DNA from: Actinomycetota bacterium
Lineage (GTDB): Bacteria > Actinomycetota > Thermoleophilia > Gaiellales > F1-60-MAGs149
Length of the DNA: 32,073 bases
Direction of reading: 5' to 3'
NCBI GenBank assembly: GCA_009885805.1
Contig: VFJZ01000033.1
Span: forward strand, 1 to 32,073
The notes beneath the pieces were generated by a model. The model did not search any database. It was not told where the DNA came from and saw nothing but the letters and a program-made list of their open reading frames with translations. Positions within the stretch are counted from its first letter, which is position 1. Every line of letters starts with the position of its first letter. Made by a program: the position numbers and the translations under genes. Below are positions 16,847 to 28,687 of this stretch, piece after piece.

Positions 16847-17989
16847 ATGAGGACGACTCGGGCAGAACTTCTGCGCCGCGGCGCCGGCGGCGCTGCACTC
16901 CTCGCGCTGGGCGTGACCGGGCTCGGACGCCCACGCGCCGCGCGAGCCGCCGTCGGCGGGCCGTACGGCCCGCTCGGGCCGGCCGACGCCAACGGCCTGC
17001 GACTGCCGGCCGGATTCAGGTCGCGCCTGATCGCCGTCACCGGCCAGCCGGTCGCGCCCACGTCCTACGTCTGGCACGAGCAGCCCGACGGCGGGCAGAC
17101 GTTCGCGCTCCGCGGCGGCGGCTGGCTCCTCGCCCAGAACGGCGAGGACAACGGTCAGCGGGGCGGGACGTCGGTGCTGCAGTTCGACCGCGGCGGCGCG
17201 GTGGTCGATGCCTACCGGATCCTCATCGGGACGAAGTGGAACTGCCATGGTGGCGCAACGCCGTGGGGGACGTGGCTGTCGTGCGAGGAGTACCCGGACG
17301 GGCTCGTCTGGGAGTGCGACCCGTACCGCCCGGGGCAGGGGGTTGCACGGCCGGCGCTCGGCGCGTTCATCCACGAAGCCGCGCCGGTGCACCCGCGCAG
17401 CGGATTCGTCTACCTGACCGAAGACGCGAACGACTCGCGCCTGTACCGGTTCCGGCCCACGAGGCCGGGCGACCTCACGGCCGGGCAGCTCGAGGCGGCG
17501 TCGGTCGCGACGTCGGGCGCGGTGACCTGGGTGAAGGTGTCGCCGAAGAACGCCTACCGCGGTCGCGACACGACCGAGTTCAAGCGGCTCGAGGGCGCCT
17601 GGATCTCGCGCGACGTCCTCTACTTCACGACGACGACGGACGACCGCGTGTGGGCCCTCGACCTGCTCGGCATGCGGATGTCCGTCCTCTACGACGGCGT
17701 CGCTACCGGCGGCCCGCTGCACAACCCCGACAACATCACGGTCCACGAGCCGACCGGCCACCTCTACGTCGGTGAGGACGGTGACGACCTGGAACTCGTG
17801 CTGTTCGCGCGTGAAGCGGTCGGCTGGGCGCCGTCGCCGTTCCTGCAACTCGTCGGGCACGGCGGGTCCGAGGTGTGCGGTCCGGCGTTCAGCCCCGACG
17901 GTCGCCGCCTCTACGTGAACTCGCAGCGCGGGATCGACGCGCACCACGGGCGCACCTACGAGATCACCGGGCCGTTCGCGAGCGGGTAG
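16847..17989 (+). CDS. PhoX-like alkaline phosphatase family protein (DUF839), Tat-exported
   Basis: The 380-residue protein begins with a Tat-like signal: R10-R11 followed by GAGGAALLALGVTGLG and an Ala-rich cleavage area near residue 35. The body follows the PhoX/DUF839 pattern: NCHGGATPWGTWLSCEE, HEAAPVHPRSGFVYLTEDANDSRLYRF, FKRLEGAWI, NPDNITVHEPTGHLYVGEDGDD and CGPAFSPDGRRLYVNSQR. PhoX enzymes are Ca/Fe-dependent phosphatases with a six-bladed propeller; this protein is shorter than classical PhoX (about 600 residues), so true phosphatase activity is uncertain. The ATG is supported by GGAGG six bases upstream. It converges with the cupin gene after six bases. Confidence 0.88.
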   Translation: MRTTRAELLRRGAGGAALLALGVTGLGRPRAARAAVGGPYGPLGPADANGLRLPAGFRSRLIAVTGQPVAPTSYVWHEQPDGGQTFALRGGGWLLAQNGEDNGQRGGTSVLQFDRGGAVVDAYRILIGTKWNCHGGATPWGTWLSCEEYPDGLVWECDPYRPGQGVARPALGAFIHEAAPVHPRSGFVYLTEDANDSRLYRFRPTRPGDLTAGQLEAASVATSGAVTWVKVSPKNAYRGRDTTEFKRLEGAWISRDVLYFTTTTDDRVWALDLLGMRMSVLYDGVATGGPLHNPDNITVHEPTGHLYVGEDGDDLELVLFAREAVGWAPSPFLQLVGHGGSEVCGPAFSPDGRRLYVNSQRGIDAHHGRTYEITGPFASG

Positions 17990-18360: not shown

Positions 18361-19485
18361 GTGGTTTCGCCCGTTCGCGCCTGCTCGACCGGGCTGTTCA
18401 CGTTCGGGCTCGCGGTTGCCATGCTCGGGCCGATCCTGCCCGGGATCCGCGCTGATCTGGGCGCGGGCGACATCGCCTCTGGCGGATTCATCGCCGCCGG
18501 CGGCGCCGGCTGGGGACTCGGCGTGCTGTCCGCCGGGCGTCTGTCGCAGCGGCGGGGTCGCCGCGCGTCGTTCGGTCTCGGGACGGCCGGGCTGACGGCA
18601 GGCCTGGTGGTCCTCGCAGCTGCCCCGGCCGTTGCGATCGCGATCGGCGCGGTCTTCGCGCTCAGTCTCGGCGGCGGTCTCATCACGGGCTCGGCCAACG
18701 CCGCGATGGCCGAGACGGGTGACCGGGCACTGGCGATCGCCAATGGCTTCTTCGCGATCGGCGCGATCACCGGCCCGCTGCTCGCGAGCGCGCTCGTCGG
18801 GCTCGGCCCGGGCTGGCGCGCGGCTCCTGCGCTGGCCGCCGTCCTGTGCGCCGCGACCGTGCCGCTCGCGCGAGCGCTGCCTGCGGGCCTGCCAGCGACA
18901 GCCGGCGCGCGCCACGGGGCGGGCGGCCTGATCCGCCGCCCGCTGTTCATCGGGCTCGCGGCGGTGATGGCGATCGACGTTGCCGCGGAGGCCGGCTTCG
19001 TCGGCTGGGTGGCAACGTACGCCACGGAGGAACGGGCGATCGCGGACTGGCTGGCGGCGCTGGCGCCGATGGCGTTCTGGACCGGCGTCGCCATCTCGCG
19101 GTTCACCGCGGCGCGATGGCCGGTCGGTCCTCGTGCGCTCGCGCCGATGATCGCCTGCGCGAGTGTCGGCACGCTGCTCGTGCTGGCCCTGCCGGGCGCA
19201 GCCGGCGTTCTCGGCGGATCGCTGATCGTCGGGCTGGCGGCCGGCCCGGTCTTCCCGATCGTCATGACGGCCGTCGGCCGGCTGTTCCCGAACGACCTCG
19301 ATGTCGCGGCCGGCCTGATCCTCGGCGCGACCGGGGCCGGCGAGATGCTCGTTCCGCTCGCCCTCGGCACGGCAGCGGCGGTGTCGGGAACGACCGCCGC
19401 GGGACTCGTCGTCGTCGCGGTGACGTTCGCCATCGCGACGGTCGTGGCGCTCGCGGTGCAGTCGCGGCGCCCCGCGTACGCCTGA
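18361..19485 (+). CDS. MFS transporter
   Basis: This 374-residue major facilitator protein has about 12 predicted membrane helices and almost no long loops. The helix 2-3 loop reads GRLSQRRGRRASFGLG, the family A-motif position (G-x-x-x-R-x-G-R-R). Other hydrophobic segments are TGLFTFGLAVAMLGPILPG, LGGGLITGSANAAMAE, LAIANGFFAIGAITGPLLASALVGLG and the C-terminal AAGLILGATGAGEMLVPLALGTAAAV. It likely exports or imports a small solute; the substrate is unknown. The GTG is fixed by the -10 box six bases upstream. It is followed after 24 bases by the ATP-grasp gene, which also has its own -10 box. Linkage with the ATP-grasp and C45 genes suggests it may export their product. Confidence 0.9.
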   Translation: MVSPVRACSTGLFTFGLAVAMLGPILPGIRADLGAGDIASGGFIAAGGAGWGLGVLSAGRLSQRRGRRASFGLGTAGLTAGLVVLAAAPAVAIAIGAVFALSLGGGLITGSANAAMAETGDRALAIANGFFAIGAITGPLLASALVGLGPGWRAAPALAAVLCAATVPLARALPAGLPATAGARHGAGGLIRRPLFIGLAAVMAIDVAAEAGFVGWVATYATEERAIADWLAALAPMAFWTGVAISRFTAARWPVGPRALAPMIACASVGTLLVLALPGAAGVLGGSLIVGLAAGPVFPIVMTAVGRLFPNDLDVAAGLILGATGAGEMLVPLALGTAAAVSGTTAAGLVVVAVTFAIATVVALAVQSRRPAYA

Positions 19486-19493
19486 TCTCGCGG

Positions 19494-19499
19494 TATCGT
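19494..19499 (+). promoter_or_regulatory. -10 box (TATCGT) before the ATP-grasp gene
   Basis: TATCGT ends ten bases before the ATG at 19510, so the leader would be about 3-4 bases. A GTG at 19498 is in frame but overlaps the box, which favours the ATG. Confidence 0.5.
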
Positions 19500-19509
19500 G
19501 GCGCGCACG

Positions 19510-21078
19510 ATGAAGAAGCTCGCCGCCCTTCTCGCCGCGCTCGGCGCGGCGACGCTCGCCGCCGCGAAGTTCCGGCGCCGGTCCGTTCCCGCCCCGCCTG
19601 TGCCGGCGCCGGCACAGGCCGACGGCGTGCTTCGCGGCATCTCCGAGATCCGCAATTTCTTCCGCCGCAACGAGACGCCGATCTACTTCGTCTCGGCGAC
19701 CGCGTTCAACCTGCTCGGCATCGACCGCTGGGTCCGCAACTTCACGTTCGTCAACTGGTACGACTCCTTCGACGGTCGGCACCCCAACGTCTTCGTGCCG
19801 ACCGAGCGCGCCCGTCACGAGTTCGAGTCGATCGAGGAGATCGTCAACCACCTCCTCGGCCACAAGGAGGTCGCCGACCTCGTCGAGCGACGCGGCGGCA
19901 CGGGCAAGGCGTGCTTCCTGATGTTCGACGCGGAGACCGAGGCGAACCTCGCCGCGCTCGGCCTCGACCTCGCCTTCCCGTCGAGCGAGTTGCGCACGCG
20001 GCTCGACTCGAAGATCGTCACGACGCAACTGGGCAACGAGGCGGGCGTTCCGAGCGTGCCGAACACGCTCGGCGAGGCGTCCAGCTACGCCGACCTCGTC
20101 GCGCTCGCCGACGGCGCCGGGCTCGGCGCGGACCTCGTCGTCCAGACGCCGTACGGCGACTCCGGCCAGACGACCTTCTTCATCGCCAGCGAGGACGACT
20201 GGGACGAGCACGCGTCGAAGATCGTCGACGAGCCGATCAAGGTGATGCGGCGGATCGACCCGCGCGAGGCGGCCGTCGAGGGCGTCGTCACCCGGCACGG
20301 CACGCTCGTCGGCCCGGTCATGACGGAGCTCGCGGGCTTCCCGGAGCTGACGCCGTACGGGGGCGGCTGGTGCGGCAACGAGGTGCGCGCGGGACTGTTC
20401 TCCGACGAGCACCGTGAGCTCGCTCGGCGCTACACGCGGCAGCTCGGCGACCGCCTGCGCGACGAGGGCTACCGCGGCTACTTCGAGCTCGATTTCCTCG
20501 TCGACGCCGCCAGCGGTGAGCTGTACCTCGGCGAACTCAACCCGCGGGTCACCGGCGCCAGTTCGATGACGAACGTGACCGCGGTCGCGTACGGCGACAT
20601 GCCGCTCTTCCTCTTCCACCTGCTCGAATTCATGGACGTCGACTACGAGATCGACGTCGACGAGCTCAACGAGCGCTGGGCGAGTCCGCAGAGCGTCGAT
20701 GCCTGGAGCCAGTTCATCCTCAAGCAGGTCGAAGACGAGGTCGGGCTGATCACGGCGGCGCCCGAGTCGGGGATCTGGCGGATGGGCGCCGACGACACCA
20801 TCGCGTTCGTCCGACACGACACCGACTGGCACACCGTCGCGGACGAGAGCGAGGCGTTCTACCTGCGGATCGCCCAGGCAGGCGGCTACCGCTACCCGGG
20901 TGCCGACCTCGGCATCCTCGTCACCCGGGGCGCCTTCATGGACGACGAGCACGAGCTCGGCGACCGCGCTCGGCACTGGATCGAGCAGATCAAGGCGCAG
21001 TTCTCGTCCGTGCCGCTCCCCGACGACGAGAAGGTCGAGGCACCCACGCCGGAGCCATTTGGCTTCAAGATGCTGTAG
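19510..21078 (+). CDS. ATP-grasp ligase with N-terminal membrane anchor (biotin carboxylase/CPSase-like fold)
   Basis: The 522-residue protein starts with a hydrophobic helix (MKKLAALLAALGAATLAAAKFRRRS) and a Pro/Ala linker to about residue 38, so it is probably membrane-anchored. The body is an ATP-grasp enzyme: K168 in RLDSKIVTTQLGNEAGVPSVPN, the glycine-rich lid loop YGDSGQTTFF at 215-224, YFELDFLVD at 324-332, and LGELNPRVTGASSMTN at 340-355, whose Glu and Asn coordinate Mg-ATP. The region after 360 is specific to this subgroup. ATP-grasp ligases activate a carboxylate as acyl phosphate and join it to an amine or thiol; there is no biotin-carboxylase companion here. The C45 gene follows after two bases. 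The substrate is unknown. Confidence 0.87.
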   Translation: MKKLAALLAALGAATLAAAKFRRRSVPAPPVPAPAQADGVLRGISEIRNFFRRNETPIYFVSATAFNLLGIDRWVRNFTFVNWYDSFDGRHPNVFVPTERARHEFESIEEIVNHLLGHKEVADLVERRGGTGKACFLMFDAETEANLAALGLDLAFPSSELRTRLDSKIVTTQLGNEAGVPSVPNTLGEASSYADLVALADGAGLGADLVVQTPYGDSGQTTFFIASEDDWDEHASKIVDEPIKVMRRIDPREAAVEGVVTRHGTLVGPVMTELAGFPELTPYGGGWCGNEVRAGLFSDEHRELARRYTRQLGDRLRDEGYRGYFELDFLVDAASGELYLGELNPRVTGASSMTNVTAVAYGDMPLFLFHLLEFMDVDYEIDVDELNERWASPQSVDAWSQFILKQVEDEVGLITAAPESGIWRMGADDTIAFVRHDTDWHTVADESEAFYLRIAQAGGYRYPGADLGILVTRGAFMDDEHELGDRARHWIEQIKAQFSSVPLPDDEKVEAPTPEPFGFKML

Positions 21079-21080
21079 GG

Positions 21081-22070
21081 ATGCAGTCGTTTCCGCTCAC
21101 GTTGCAGGCGTTCGCCGAACCCGAGCCCGGGGATCGCTGGCGCGCGCTGTTCACGGCCGCATGGCCGTCGTATCAGCGCTGGTTCCTCCGCCAGGGCGAC
21201 GCGGCACGACCGAACTACGTCACGTCACGGCGAATGGTGCGCGAGCACCTCCCGGAGTTGGCCGGCACGTACGACCGCGTCGTCGACCTCGCCGGCGGCG
21301 GCGACCAGGCGGCGCGGATGCTCTCGCTCTGGCGCCCGACCCCGTACCTGGCCGGCTGCTCGCAAGCAGCCCTGACCGACGCGGAGCCGGCCCTCGTCCG
21401 CAACTACGACTACGCGCCCGACCGCTTCGAGGGCACCGTTGTCGAGACGAGGTGGAGCGGCCGCCGCGTGATCGGTATGAGCGATTGCCTGTGGGGCCTC
21501 CTCGACGGCATCAACGACGACGGGCTGGCGGTGTCGCTGACGTTCGGCGGGCGGCAGGTGGTCGGCGACGGCTTCGGGATCCCGATCGTCGTGCGCTACC
21601 TGTTGGAGACGTGCTCGACGGTGAGTGAGGCACGCCGCGCGCTCGAGCGGATCCCGGTCAATCTCGCGCACAACCTCACGCTCGTCGACGCCAGGAACGA
21701 GGCGGCGACCGTCGAGGTCGGACCCGACCGCCGACCGCGCTGGCGAGCGACGCCGGTCGCCACCAATCATCAGGGCGTGATCGACTGGCCGGAGCACGCC
21801 CACTTCACGCGGACGATCGATCGGGAGCGGTGCCTGACCGATCTGATCGCCTCGCCGGCAACGACCGCCGAGACGCTCTCGGCTGCGTTCCTCGAACCGC
21901 CGCTGCACTCCGCGGCCTACTCGCGGGGCTTCGGCACCCTCTACACGGCCTGCTACGAACCGCTCACCGGCAGCGCCACGTACCGCTGGCCCGCCTCCAC
22001 CTGGCGACAGGCGTTCGACGCCTTCCACGAAGGCATTCACACGACCCACCTGGTGGAGCAGGCCGCGTGA
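21081..22070 (+). CDS. C45 family Ntn hydrolase/acyltransferase (penicillin acyltransferase-like)
   Basis: This 329-residue protein is of the C45 autoproteolytic acyltransferase family. A propeptide of 92 residues precedes YLAGCSQAAL, where C93 after Gly would become the N-terminal nucleophile on self-cleavage, as Gly-Cys does in acyl-CoA:6-APA acyltransferase. The following family motifs are present: VRNYDYAP, GMSDCLWGLLDGINDDGLAVSLTFGG, IVVRYLLETCSTVSEAR and NLTLVDARNEAATVEV. Such enzymes cleave or transfer amide-linked acyl groups. It lies two bases after the ATP-grasp ligase and overlaps the next gene as GTGA, so it is co-transcribed. There is no signal peptide, so action is cytoplasmic or at the inner face. 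Confidence 0.9.
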   Translation: MQSFPLTLQAFAEPEPGDRWRALFTAAWPSYQRWFLRQGDAARPNYVTSRRMVREHLPELAGTYDRVVDLAGGGDQAARMLSLWRPTPYLAGCSQAALTDAEPALVRNYDYAPDRFEGTVVETRWSGRRVIGMSDCLWGLLDGINDDGLAVSLTFGGRQVVGDGFGIPIVVRYLLETCSTVSEARRALERIPVNLAHNLTLVDARNEAATVEVGPDRRPRWRATPVATNHQGVIDWPEHAHFTRTIDRERCLTDLIASPATTAETLSAAFLEPPLHSAAYSRGFGTLYTACYEPLTGSATYRWPASTWRQAFDAFHEGIHTTHLVEQAA

Positions 22071-23776
22071 GAGCGTTCGCGACGGGGCTCCTCGCCCTGC
22101 TCGCGATGCCAGCCGTCGCGCTCGCCGTCGCCGTGCCCGACGTCTCGTTCGAGGGTATCGGGGGCGGGCCGTTCCCGCCGGCCGACCCGAACATCGACGT
22201 CTCGGCGACCCAGGTCGTCGAGATGACCAACGGCGGCTACGCCGTGTTCACCAAGGCGGGCGCGTTGATTCAGCGCGGTACGCTGGGGAGCATCTTCGCG
22301 GCGGCGGGCGACACGCCGTGCTCGTCCGAGGCCGACGGCGATCCGATCGTCATCCACGATCGAGCGGCCGATCGCTGGCTGCTCTCGTTCTTCTCGATCT
22401 CCTCCGGTACGGGGTCCTACCAGTGCATCGCCGTCTCGCAGTCCCCTGACGCGACCGGGCCGTACCACCTCTACCAGTACCTCCTGTCGTCGACCCGGCT
22501 GCACGACTATCCGAAGCTCGTCGTCTGGGGTGACAGCTACCTCCTGGCGACGTTCGAGTTCGCGGTCACGGGCACGGGCGAGAGCGCGGTCGGGCCGGCG
22601 CTGTTCGCCTTCGATCGCACGAAACTGCTCGCCGGCGACGGCGGCGTCGCCGTCCCGGTGCCGGTTCCGGACTCGCTGCGCGACGTCGTGCTGCTGCCCG
22701 CCCACGCCGACGAGGCGGTTGCCGCGCCACCCGGCGAACCCGCATACGTCCTCGGCGCCAACGACCTCCGCAACCGCCTCGAGGTCCTGCGCGTCGCCGT
22801 CGCGTGGCCAGCCGGCACCGTCACCGTCAGCGGGCCGCAGCGCGTCCCGGTGCCGGCGTTCGACGGCGAGATCTGCACGAATGCGTTCCTGCATTGCGTT
22901 CCGCAGTTCGGGACGACCGCGCGACTCGACTCCCTCTCCGACCGGCTGCTCTGGCGCGTGCAGTACCGCCGCCGACCGGACGGTGCTCCGACGCTCGTCG
23001 CCTCCCACACGGTCGACGCCAACGGGCAGGGCCGGGCGGGCGTTCGCTGGTACCAGCTCGAACCATCCGGTCCGTCGCTCCGCATCGTCCAGTCCGGGAC
23101 GTTCGCGCCGAACGGAACGCAGCGCTTCATGGGCTCTGCGGCGATGAACGCGACCGGCGATATCGCCCTCGGCTACTCGGTCGCCGGCAGCCAGGTGCGA
23201 CCGGGCATCCGCTACACGGGGCGGCTCGCGAGCGATCCGCCGGGGACGATGCCGCAGGGCGAGGGCGTCATCCTCACCGGTGGCGGCGTCCAGACGAGGC
23301 GCTTCGATGAACCCGGCTTCACGCGGAGCGCGCGTTGGGGGGACTACTCGACGACGGTGATCGACCCGGTCGACGGCTGCACGTTCTGGCACGTCAACCA
23401 GTTCCTCCGGCGTAGCGACGCAGAGCCGCAGACGCGGATCGCCGCGTTCCGCCTTGCCGGCTGCGCGCCACCGCCGGGCCCCGACGTGACGCCGCCATCC
23501 GATCCGCCGGTCATCGCGCCGATTCTCACTCCACGACGGCCAGGGGCGTACTGGTTCCGGTTCCCGGGCGCCGCCGACCCGAGCGGCATCGAGGGCTACT
23601 CCATCGTCGTCGACCACGTCGCCGACACGGTCCCGGACGCGACGATCGACACACGGCGCTCGCGCTCCCGCCAACGCCTCGGACGCGGCACGTGGTACTT
23701 CCACGTCCGCACGCTCGACCGGGCCGGGAACTGGTCGGCCACGGCCCGCACGGCTGGTCCCTTCCGGCTGCGCTGA
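22067..23776 (+). CDS. Secreted propeller-like protein with C-terminal FN3/Ig-like domain
   Basis: The 569-residue protein has a Sec signal peptide (RAFATGLLALLAMPAVALAV, cleavage near 20-23). The central 400 residues show repeating beta-rich segments: DPIVIHDRAADRWLLSFFS, YQCIAVSQSPDATGPYHLY, DYPKLVVWGDSYLLATF and RWGDYSTTVIDPVDGCTFWHVNQFL, typical of exported bacterial sialidase-like beta-propellers of unknown role. After a Pro-rich linker (PPPGPDVTPPSDPPV, about 465-480) comes an FN3/Ig-like module with GTWYFHVRTLDRAGNWS. The GTG start overlaps the C45 stop as GTGA, tying an extracellular protein to a cytoplasmic ligase/acyltransferase pair. It converges on an SDR gene after four bases. 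It may bind or present a product at the cell surface (inference). Confidence 0.82.
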   Translation: MRAFATGLLALLAMPAVALAVAVPDVSFEGIGGGPFPPADPNIDVSATQVVEMTNGGYAVFTKAGALIQRGTLGSIFAAAGDTPCSSEADGDPIVIHDRAADRWLLSFFSISSGTGSYQCIAVSQSPDATGPYHLYQYLLSSTRLHDYPKLVVWGDSYLLATFEFAVTGTGESAVGPALFAFDRTKLLAGDGGVAVPVPVPDSLRDVVLLPAHADEAVAAPPGEPAYVLGANDLRNRLEVLRVAVAWPAGTVTVSGPQRVPVPAFDGEICTNAFLHCVPQFGTTARLDSLSDRLLWRVQYRRRPDGAPTLVASHTVDANGQGRAGVRWYQLEPSGPSLRIVQSGTFAPNGTQRFMGSAAMNATGDIALGYSVAGSQVRPGIRYTGRLASDPPGTMPQGEGVILTGGGVQTRRFDEPGFTRSARWGDYSTTVIDPVDGCTFWHVNQFLRRSDAEPQTRIAAFRLAGCAPPPGPDVTPPSDPPVIAPILTPRRPGAYWFRFPGAADPSGIEGYSIVVDHVADTVPDATIDTRRSRSRQRLGRGTWYFHVRTLDRAGNWSATARTAGPFRLR

Positions 23777-27356: not shown

Positions 27357-28687
27357 TGTCACGAAGCGTGATCGTGATCGGCGGCGGCGTGATCGGTGTC
27401 GCGTGCGCCTGGTCGCTGCGCCAGGCGGGCTGCGACGTCGTCGTGGTCGAGGGGGGCGAGCTGGCCGGCGGCGCATCGCACGGGAACGCCGGCTGGCTGA
27501 CGCCGAGCCTTGCGACGCCGCTCGCCGCGCCGGGCATCCTCCGCACCGGCCTTCGCTCCGCGCTCGACCCGCGCGGCGCGCTCGTCATCCGCCCGACGCT
27601 CGACGCCGCGTGGCTGCGGTGGCTGTGGCGGTTCAAACGGGCCGCCTCGGCAGAGCAGTTCAGTGCCGGCATCGCAGCGCTGCTCGGCCTGACGCGGCGA
27701 ACGCTGGCGCAGCTCGACGCCTACCGCAGCGCCGGCGTCGAGTTCGAGATGCATGCCGACGGGATCATCGCCGTGGCGCGCAGCCGGGAGGCGTTCGCCT
27801 GGTTCGACGCGACGTTCGCGGAGCTCGACCGGCACGGCTTCGAGGGCGACCTCGTCCACATGACCGGCGACGAGGCACGGGCCGCCGAGCCCGCCCTCGG
27901 TGACGCGGTCGGCGCCGCGACGCGGCTGACGATCGACTGCCACGTCGACCCGGTGAGCCTCGTCCGCGGCCTGGCGGCACAGGCCGGCGAGATCCGTGAG
28001 CACGCGCCCGTCACCGCGATCGCGGCGACCGCGTCGGGCTGGCGCGTCCGCGCCGGCGCCGACTCCCTCGCCGCCGAGCATGTCGTCGTCGCCACCGGCA
28101 CCGCGGCGCCGGCACTCCTCATGCCGTTCGGCGTCGACCTGCTGATCGTCGGCGCGAAGGGCTACTCCGTCACCGCGAAGGGCACCGGCACGCAGCCGTC
28201 GAGCGCCCTCTACCTGTGCGAGCCGAAGCTCGGGCTGTCGGCGCTCGACGCCGGCCTGCGCATCGCCGGGATGTTCGAGCTCGGCGGCAACGATGCGGCG
28301 ATCGATCCCGCCCGTGTCCGACAACTCGTGGACGACACGCTGCCGTTCCTGCGCGACTGGCGGCCGGCGCCGGGCTGGGAGGCGACCGCTTGGGTAGGGT
28401 TCCGCCCGGCGACGCCCGACAGTCTGCCGGTGATCGGCGAGGTGCCGGGCGCGGCCGGGCTGTACGTCGCGGCCGGGCACGGCATGCTCGGCGTGACGCT
28501 CGCGCCGGCGACCGGCCTCGCGATCGCGGAGATGATCGCGGGCGGCGCGGTGCCCGAGTGGGCGGCGCCGTTCGCGCTGGAACAAAGAGGTCAGGCCCCT
28601 TTGTTCCACCGATCAGCCTGCGGTGCTCGGGGAGCGGATCGAGCGAAACCGCCCCGCGGCCGCCGAGCGGCAGCGCGCCGGCGATGA
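27356..28687 (+). CDS. FAD-dependent amine/amino-acid oxidoreductase (DadA-like) with altered C-terminus
   Basis: This 443-residue DAO-family flavoprotein has the dinucleotide motif VIVIGGGVIGVACAWSL at 5-21 (G9-G14), GGASHGNAGWLTPS after the second strand, HADGIIAVARS, the FAD-binding VVVATGTAAPALL, and a C-terminal GFRPATPDSLPVIGEVPGAAGLYVAAGHGMLGVTLAPATGLAIAEMI. It would oxidise a D-amino acid or secondary amine, or a hydroxy acid in this context. Normal members end just after the segment PEWAAPFAL. Here a palindrome at 28578-28608 follows immediately and the frame runs on for 35 basic, low-complexity residues to 28687. The natural stop was probably displaced. The ATG overlaps the stop of the dehydratase gene. 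Confidence 0.88.
   Translation: MSRSVIVIGGGVIGVACAWSLRQAGCDVVVVEGGELAGGASHGNAGWLTPSLATPLAAPGILRTGLRSALDPRGALVIRPTLDAAWLRWLWRFKRAASAEQFSAGIAALLGLTRRTLAQLDAYRSAGVEFEMHADGIIAVARSREAFAWFDATFAELDRHGFEGDLVHMTGDEARAAEPALGDAVGAATRLTIDCHVDPVSLVRGLAAQAGEIREHAPVTAIAATASGWRVRAGADSLAAEHVVVATGTAAPALLMPFGVDLLIVGAKGYSVTAKGTGTQPSSALYLCEPKLGLSALDAGLRIAGMFELGGNDAAIDPARVRQLVDDTLPFLRDWRPAPGWEATAWVGFRPATPDSLPVIGEVPGAAGLYVAAGHGMLGVTLAPATGLAIAEMIAGGAVPEWAAPFALEQRGQAPLFHRSACGARGADRAKPPRGRRAAARRR
28578..28608. repeat. REP-like palindrome inserted at the end of the FAD oxidoreductase gene
   Basis: TGGAACAAAG (28578-28587) and CTTTGTTCCA (28599-28608) are perfect inverted arms, continued by GG/CC pairs around one mismatch to a TCAGG loop. 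The core (AGGTCAGGCCCC) resembles the GGGGTCAG-type palindromes dispersed in several bacterial genomes. It is strikingly AT-rich in its arms compared with the flanking DNA. It is a possible REP/MITE-like unit that may also act as a terminator. Confidence 0.6.

Follow-up and report, generated by a model that had tools for sequence, protein, structure and literature searches.

The closest described counterparts of the locus reported here are the gamma-glutamyl-putrescine (Puu) pathway and the GlnA2/GlnA3 gamma-glutamylpolyamine synthetases, with which it would share ATP-dependent ligation of an amine, oxidation of the free end, hydrolysis of the amide, a GABA aminotransferase and SSADH. The regulator of the Puu pathway is of the XRE-cupin PuuR type. 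The window analyzed here, a 32,073-nucleotide stretch of DNA from an Actinomycetota bacterium, contains a pair of genes encoding an ATP-grasp ligase and an amide hydrolase which, with a likelihood somewhat better than even, represents a comparable amine-masking route for diamine catabolism, assembled from unrelated enzymes. In the papers searched, the ligase family (PRK06524) was not found by name and no match linked the ligase to polyamines or to C45 enzymes; an earlier mention in the 2009 amidoligase survey by Iyer et al. is possible.

In the window, the pair is flanked by two other genes, the four being arranged head to tail:

18361..19485, plus strand: MFS transporter (PF07690, E 2.7e-17), adjacent here, non-conserved part of the locus
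19498..21078, plus strand: putative ATP-grasp amide ligase of the PRK06524 family (NF005096; ATP-grasp fold model), core of the module
19501..19572, plus strand: predicted N-terminal hydrophobic helix of the ligase (residues 2-25), possible membrane anchor, modeled with low confidence
21081..22070, plus strand: C45 Ntn amide hydrolase/acyltransferase (PF03417, NF040521, fold model), core partner of the ligase
21357..21359, plus strand: codon of the catalytic Cys93, with predicted self-cleavage at Gly92-Cys93 (invariance and structural alignment)
22067..23776, plus strand: secreted protein of unassigned fold, adjacent only in the window and in the sister genus, non-conserved part of the locus

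This gene order and its junctions, already outlined in a preliminary description, were confirmed: 2 bases separate the ligase from the C45 gene, which overlaps the gene of the secreted protein by GTGA. The MFS gene lies 12 bases upstream of the ligase, and a second copy of the ligase-C45 pair is present in the same genome.

Using ligase queries alone, 70 non-redundant ligase loci were retrieved. A C45 gene is located at most 3 kb from the ligase in 58 of them, while a NylB-type amide hydrolase takes its place in 11; the remaining locus is truncated at a contig edge, and no orphan ligase was found among the 70. All 20 Rhodobacteraceae loci read have a C45 gene. The pair occurs in marine roseobacters (18 percent of the sampled Rhodobacteraceae), Bacteroidota and Actinomycetota, and since ligase and hydrolase are adjacent in three phyla, their association exceeds chance. 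The proposal of an amide-chemistry pair was to be abandoned if ATP-grasp and C45 genes proved mostly unlinked in relatives; the linkage is instead nearly absolute and this objection therefore fails. The conserved unit is composed of two genes, the ATP-grasp ligase and the amide hydrolase, not of four.

The C45 protein is recognized by PF03417 (E 1.8e-31, 110 bits over a cut-off of 23.2) and by NF040521 (163 bits, cut-off 85). Its AF2 model (pLDDT 95.6) superposes on isopenicillin N acyltransferase (2x1c) with a Z score of 29.3 across 301 residues. The protein shares the C45/Ntn fold and the catalytic cysteine with this enzyme, NAAA, acid ceramidase and penicillin V acylase, although its identity to isopenicillin N acyltransferase and other Ntn hydrolases is about 16 percent. 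Unlike in the isopenicillin N acyltransferase setting, no NRPS context was noticed and the gene adjoins an ATP-grasp ligase. Self-activation is predicted at Gly92-Cys93, the position correctly assigned in the preliminary description: C93 is invariant in 32 homologues and structurally matches the Cys1 residue of penicillin V acylase and of bile salt hydrolases. Four further loci encode this type of C45 enzyme without a ligase; their neighbors, a PHB-depolymerase-like gene or others, give no hint of the substrate.

NylB has replaced C45 twice on the ligase tree, as expected if the role of the second enzyme is amide cleavage. The NylB-type partners are serine hydrolases and occur in other actinobacteria. 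The mycobacterial one matches 6-aminohexanoate-dimer hydrolase (E 2.9e-63) and retains both the SxxK and YxS motifs, its SVSK and YRS being aligned with SVSK and YCS of 3vwm.

The ligase itself is a member of NF005096/PRK06524 (745.1 bits, over the curated cut-off of 684 bits) and has no match in Pfam. Its AF2 model (pLDDT 87.5) adopts the ATP-grasp fold, with Z scores of 22-23 to PurK, biotin carboxylase and PylC. The start codon is ambiguous (GTG 19498, ATG 19510 or GTG 19627), and initiation at the internal GTG 19627 would remove the N-terminal anchor previously proposed for this protein. The anchor is only weakly marked in the window, where the 19-residue Kyte-Doolittle maximum reaches 1.53, but more hydrophobic N-termini (1.8-2.8), with little sequence identity among them, recur in seven related ATP-grasp loci.

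In Rhodobacteraceae, the pair is associated with polyamine genes. A PuuR-like gene, scoring below the curated cut-off, is present in 22 of 34 genomes of this family with the ligase, never more than one per genome, against 6 of 34 genomes lacking the ligase (Fisher p 8e-5). In 18 of the 22 genomes, it is no more than 15 kb away from the ligase. Neighbors of the pair in this family comprise an Rv2531c-type decarboxylase, class III/GABA aminotransferases, a semialdehyde dehydrogenase, polyamine transporters, a glutarate CoA-transferase and a glutaryl-CoA-dehydrogenase-like enzyme (ACAD). The GABA transaminase and SSADH neighbors score over the cut-off. Matches of the operon decarboxylase to Rv2531c (E 1.5e-248) and of other neighbors to PuuC-like ALDH (575 bits), succinate-glutarate CoA-transferase (533 bits), PotG (500 bits), PotF (385 bits) and PuuR either fall short of equivalog cut-offs or lack substrate specificity. 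Rv2531c-type decarboxylases have no assigned activity (PMC12910592). The order nitrilase-decarboxylase-ligase-C45 is common to Rhodobacteraceae and Bacteroidota, and a copper amine oxidase adjoins the ligase in three actinobacteria. The amine genes are found mainly in Rhodobacteraceae and in part in Bacteroidota and these three actinobacteria. The commonest transporters of the pair operons are TRAP transporters of unassigned substrate.

We infer the reactions, substrates and masking acid of a proposed four-step route. In the first step, the ligase would spend ATP on joining a carboxylic acid (glutamate in the Puu pathway) to one of the amino groups of a diamine or similar amine, such as cadaverine or putrescine, thereby masking this group. 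The free amine end would then be oxidized by a class III aminotransferase, a copper amine oxidase or an FAD oxidase, and a dehydrogenase would convert the aldehyde into an N-acyl omega-amino acid. Cleavage of the amide by NylB, or by the C45 enzyme once self-activated at Gly92-Cys93, would release 5-aminovalerate or GABA together with the reusable acid. Finally, GabT/DavT, a semialdehyde dehydrogenase, glutarate CoA-transferase and glutaryl-CoA dehydrogenase would complete the breakdown. A glutamine-synthetase-like ligase is also encoded elsewhere in the genome of at least one pair-bearing roseobacter, so the masking route would not be the sole one there.

Beside the pair, the Thermoleophilia-type lineage of the window has an M20 deacylase or nothing diagnostic. 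No diagnostic polyamine gene adjoins the window's own pair and no PuuR-like regulator was seen in the window; a DadA-like FAD oxidoreductase (27368-28687) comes nearest as a candidate but is not co-operonic with the pair. The single Orn/Lys/Arg decarboxylase match in the genome is located on a different contig, and its open frame spans 483 aa vs 915 aa for the operon type. Because the immediate neighbors lack genes for the second and fourth steps, we can only infer that the window's copy runs the same route as the Rhodobacteraceae copies.

The preliminary description had viewed the four genes as one system for synthesis and export or surface display of an amide product, with the MFS and secreted proteins as working parts. 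Their tight, co-directional spacing in the window and the occurrence of both genes within the sister-genus neighborhood agree with such a system. However, the sister genus has the MFS gene two genes upstream of the ligase instead of adjoining it, and this gene was not found beside the ligase in the other loci compared. Of 129 genomes from the order, 21 encode homologues of the secreted protein, and most of these 21 have no ligase. This distribution led us to reject the four-gene reading, which is highly improbable, and the neighborhoods elsewhere indicate amine catabolism rather than export. The "propeller" assigned to the secreted protein found no Pfam or meaningful PDB match and was left unconfirmed. 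The NCBI name of PRK06524 is "biotin carboxylase". In favor of this identity are the NF005096 score and the closest solved relatives by sequence, which are biotin carboxylase domains. In biotin carboxylase, the glutamate of QVEH following E-x-N-x-R is the catalytic base; the ligase reads ELNPRVSGASS in place of EVNPRIQVEHT, and across its homologues this glutamate is replaced, G353 being invariant and A354 present in at least 90 percent. Moreover, the fold matches PylC, an amide ligase, equally well, and no BCCP or carboxyltransferase partner was recognized among the compared neighbor genes, part of which were classified. The name therefore looks wrong even though the fold fits, and we rejected this identity as extremely improbable.

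Alternatively, the pair could make and recycle a stored or signaling amide (a small conjugate, an osmolyte or a natural product) which the hydrolase breaks or re-acylates, the nearby amine genes supplying or using the amine. An amine could indeed come from the decarboxylase encoded just before the ligase, true acyltransferases are found in the C45 family, isopenicillin N acyltransferase among them, and the window's copy has no adjoining oxidation genes. Yet the PuuR-like regulator, the GABA/5-aminovalerate aminotransferase, SSADH, glutarate CoA-transferase and glutaryl-CoA-dehydrogenase-like genes are catabolic, and no conserved exporter or tailoring enzyme accompanies the pair, making this alternative rather unlikely. 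The same regulator and downstream enzymes, of the diamine-catabolism type, weigh against a hydrolase acting on exogenous nylon-like or N-acyl amides, with the ligase as a detoxifying conjugase, or against xenobiotic or antibiotic acyl exchange. Such functions would suit the NylB and penicillin-acylase-type folds and the peptide/TRAP importers near some loci, but conservation in three phyla suggests a common metabolite, and we regard them as very unlikely.

We thus favor the amine-masking route. It is conceivable, with a likelihood just short of even, that it reflects a widespread and undescribed module in which an ATP-grasp enzyme protects one diamine end and an interchangeable hydrolase (C45, NylB or perhaps M20) releases it, independently of the glutamine-synthetase-based gamma-glutamyl route. 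If so, a second, non-homologous protect-oxidize-release route for diamines has been hidden by a biotin carboxylase name, and it would place the Rv2531c-type decarboxylase within a pathway. Similarly to PylC and other ATP-grasp amino acid ligases (Z 22.3-22.8), the ligase would form an amide, but it shares 12 percent identity with PylC and belongs to a different pathway. NylB 6-aminohexanoate-dimer hydrolase, of the same family as the C45 substitute, also frees an omega-amino acid from an amide; while NylB-like hydrolases are known from nylon oligomers and nylon waste, their linkage to the ligase points to a natural role which could be tested. Compared with the Puu pathway, an ATP-grasp ligase stands in place of the glutamine-synthetase-like PuuA, and C45 or NylB in place of PuuD, which is of the class I glutamine-amidotransferase type.

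The window is the entire contig C51 of a 3.56-Mb actinobacterial genome (95 percent complete), placed as Thermoleophilia-type by its closest named relatives. Its sequence confirms the head-to-tail arrangement and the junctions of the four genes as reported in the preliminary description.

16847-17989: secreted, PhoX-like protein whose N-terminus is of the RR type; lies just 5' of the four genes
18361-23776: the four genes, encoding an MFS transporter, an ATP-grasp ligase, a C45 Ntn hydrolase and a secreted protein
19498-21078: ATP-grasp ligase
22067-23776: secreted protein, fold unknown

The ATP-grasp protein is a clear member of NF005096 (PRK06524), an NCBIfam family named 'biotin carboxylase' (745 bits against a cut-off of 684), and has no Pfam match. 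Neighborhoods were surveyed with this protein as the only query, the accompanying genes being read afterwards, among 61 near relatives and 31 loci of the GTDB contig collection. Genes in other loci were called by a simple script and neighbors classified via representative members; the suffix 'like' denotes an equivalog name scoring under its cut-off. NF005096 was found over its cut-off in 15 of 396 genomes of the phylum, while ATP-grasp-positive genomes account for 6/129 in the order and 36/198 in Rhodobacteraceae. Among 70 non-redundant loci, which do not represent 70 independent events because many are close relatives, a C45 gene lies within 3 kb of the ligase in 58, mostly at 600 bases or less and co-directional, a beta-lactamase-fold serine hydrolase replaces it in 11, and one locus is interrupted by a contig end. 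With the ATP-grasp protein alone as query, no orphan was found among these 70 loci. The pairing occurs in Actinomycetota, Bacteroidota and Alphaproteobacteria, and the suspected co-occurrence of ligase and C45 homologs is thus upheld. In one roseobacter (L141, 11166-13553), about 2.4 kb separates the two genes, which normally touch, and in one Flavobacteriales MAG (L045, 8573-8639) the ligase gene is split into two calls, possibly by a stop or an assembly error.

Export or surface display by a four-gene system, as initially proposed, was not borne out. In the sister genus, two genes intervene between the ligase and the MFS gene 5' of it, and no MFS gene adjoining the ligase was found in the other loci compared. 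Of the order's 129 genomes, 21 carry the secreted-protein family, and most of these lack the ligase; in G050 and G052, two genomes outside the two sister genera, both are present on different contigs. Neither gene is a conserved part of the system, and the export or display proposal therefore loses both. In some genomes of the order the secreted family occurs in several copies, with as many as six matches, and internal stops are present in some cases.

The ligase model has an ATP-grasp fold (pLDDT 87.5), fits biotin carboxylases, PurK and the amide ligase PylC equally well (Z 22-23), and its profile search retrieves biotin carboxylase domains. After an E-x-N-x-R motif, it carries VSGAS where biotin carboxylases have IQVEH, a motif containing the catalytic base of their reaction. 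Because of this replacement the ligase lacks that base, and 'biotin carboxylase' is probably a wrong annotation spread over many genomes. The predicted N-terminal membrane anchor fared less clearly: a hydrophobic segment does precede the conserved core in the window, but its function as an anchor is uncertain there. Seven related loci carry a more strongly hydrophobic segment at low sequence identity; a second copy (contig C64) and most other members lack it. Such a segment may bring the ligase to the membrane.

The partner protein satisfies the C45 family models, as first assigned, and its structural model (pLDDT 95.6) superposes on isopenicillin N acyltransferase (Z 29.3 over 301 residues), with C93 in the nucleophile position. 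The replacement hydrolase of mycobacteria and other actinobacteria is a relative of NylB, the 6-aminohexanoate-dimer hydrolase (E 2.9e-63), and it retains the SxxK and Tyr residues. Well-supported branches of the ligase tree force two changes for the NylB label. That a single slot is filled by either of two unrelated amide hydrolases argues that its role would be to cleave the amide formed by the ligase. Several Thermoleophilia-type loci have an M20 deacylase immediately 5' of the ligase, possibly a third enzyme of this kind.

The window's genome (G000) also contains a second, diverged pair (G000:C64:30363-32794; L049 8295-10705), whose ligase is 57 percent identical and which is shared by a sister genome. 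This pair adjoins an allantoate-amidohydrolase-like M20 gene and ornithine-cyclodeaminase-like genes. Two more distant C45 genes of the same genome (G000:C5:55114 and C35:18673) both have acyl-CoA dehydrogenase genes nearby. Solo C45 genes of roseobacters (L086, L088 and L033 12606-13703) adjoin a ribbon-helix-helix-type regulator. In L086 and L088, a PHB-depolymerase-like gene is also present, and the L088 locus continues with a GS-like gene and one for an FAD oxidoreductase.

Rhodobacteraceae possess two types of operons containing the pair. The first comprises a nitrilase, a 915-residue Orn/Lys/Arg-type decarboxylase, the ligase and C45, to which a TAXI-TRAP transporter and a class III aminotransferase are often added; the order of the first four genes is kept in two Flavobacteriales genomes, and the loci with the decarboxylase form a single clade of the ligase tree (100/100). 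This decarboxylase (e.g., L127 6435-9185 and relatives) is of the Rv2531c type (E 1.5e-248), and the activity of Rv2531c is unknown (PMC12910592); the conserved operon provides a clue to the substrate of such enzymes. The second type comprises the ligase, C45, a nitrilase and a divergent DctPQM TRAP transporter. Single loci add PotF/PotG polyamine transporter genes, a GABA/5-aminovalerate aminotransferase, a succinate-glutarate CoA-transferase, a glutaryl-CoA-dehydrogenase-like enzyme or a PuuC-like aldehyde dehydrogenase. In Ruegeria pomeroyi, PotFGHI has been shown experimentally to import cadaverine, putrescine and spermidine (PMC10130141). A PuuR-like XRE-cupin regulator is encoded, at most once per ligase-positive genome, in 22/34 ligase-positive and 6/34 ligase-negative Rhodobacteraceae (Fisher p 8e-5, a value which ignores genome relatedness), and is no more than 15 kb away from the ligase in 18 of these 22 genomes, where well under one would be expected. 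A copper amine oxidase adjoins the ligase in three actinobacterial loci.

As the substrate class of the module, C5 chemistry, in which cadaverine would be converted to 5-aminovalerate and then to glutarate, is favored over C4 because of the glutarate genes and NylB's taste for omega-amino acid amides. Beside either copy of the pair in the window's genome, no diagnostic amine genes were found; we infer from its family that the window's own pair may act in amine catabolism. The gamma-glutamylation route proceeds through a ligase, an oxidation, a hydrolase, an aminotransferase and SSADH (PMC5403932). The same logic fits the parts of the ligase-C45/NylB module, whereas both signature enzymes are swapped for unrelated ones.
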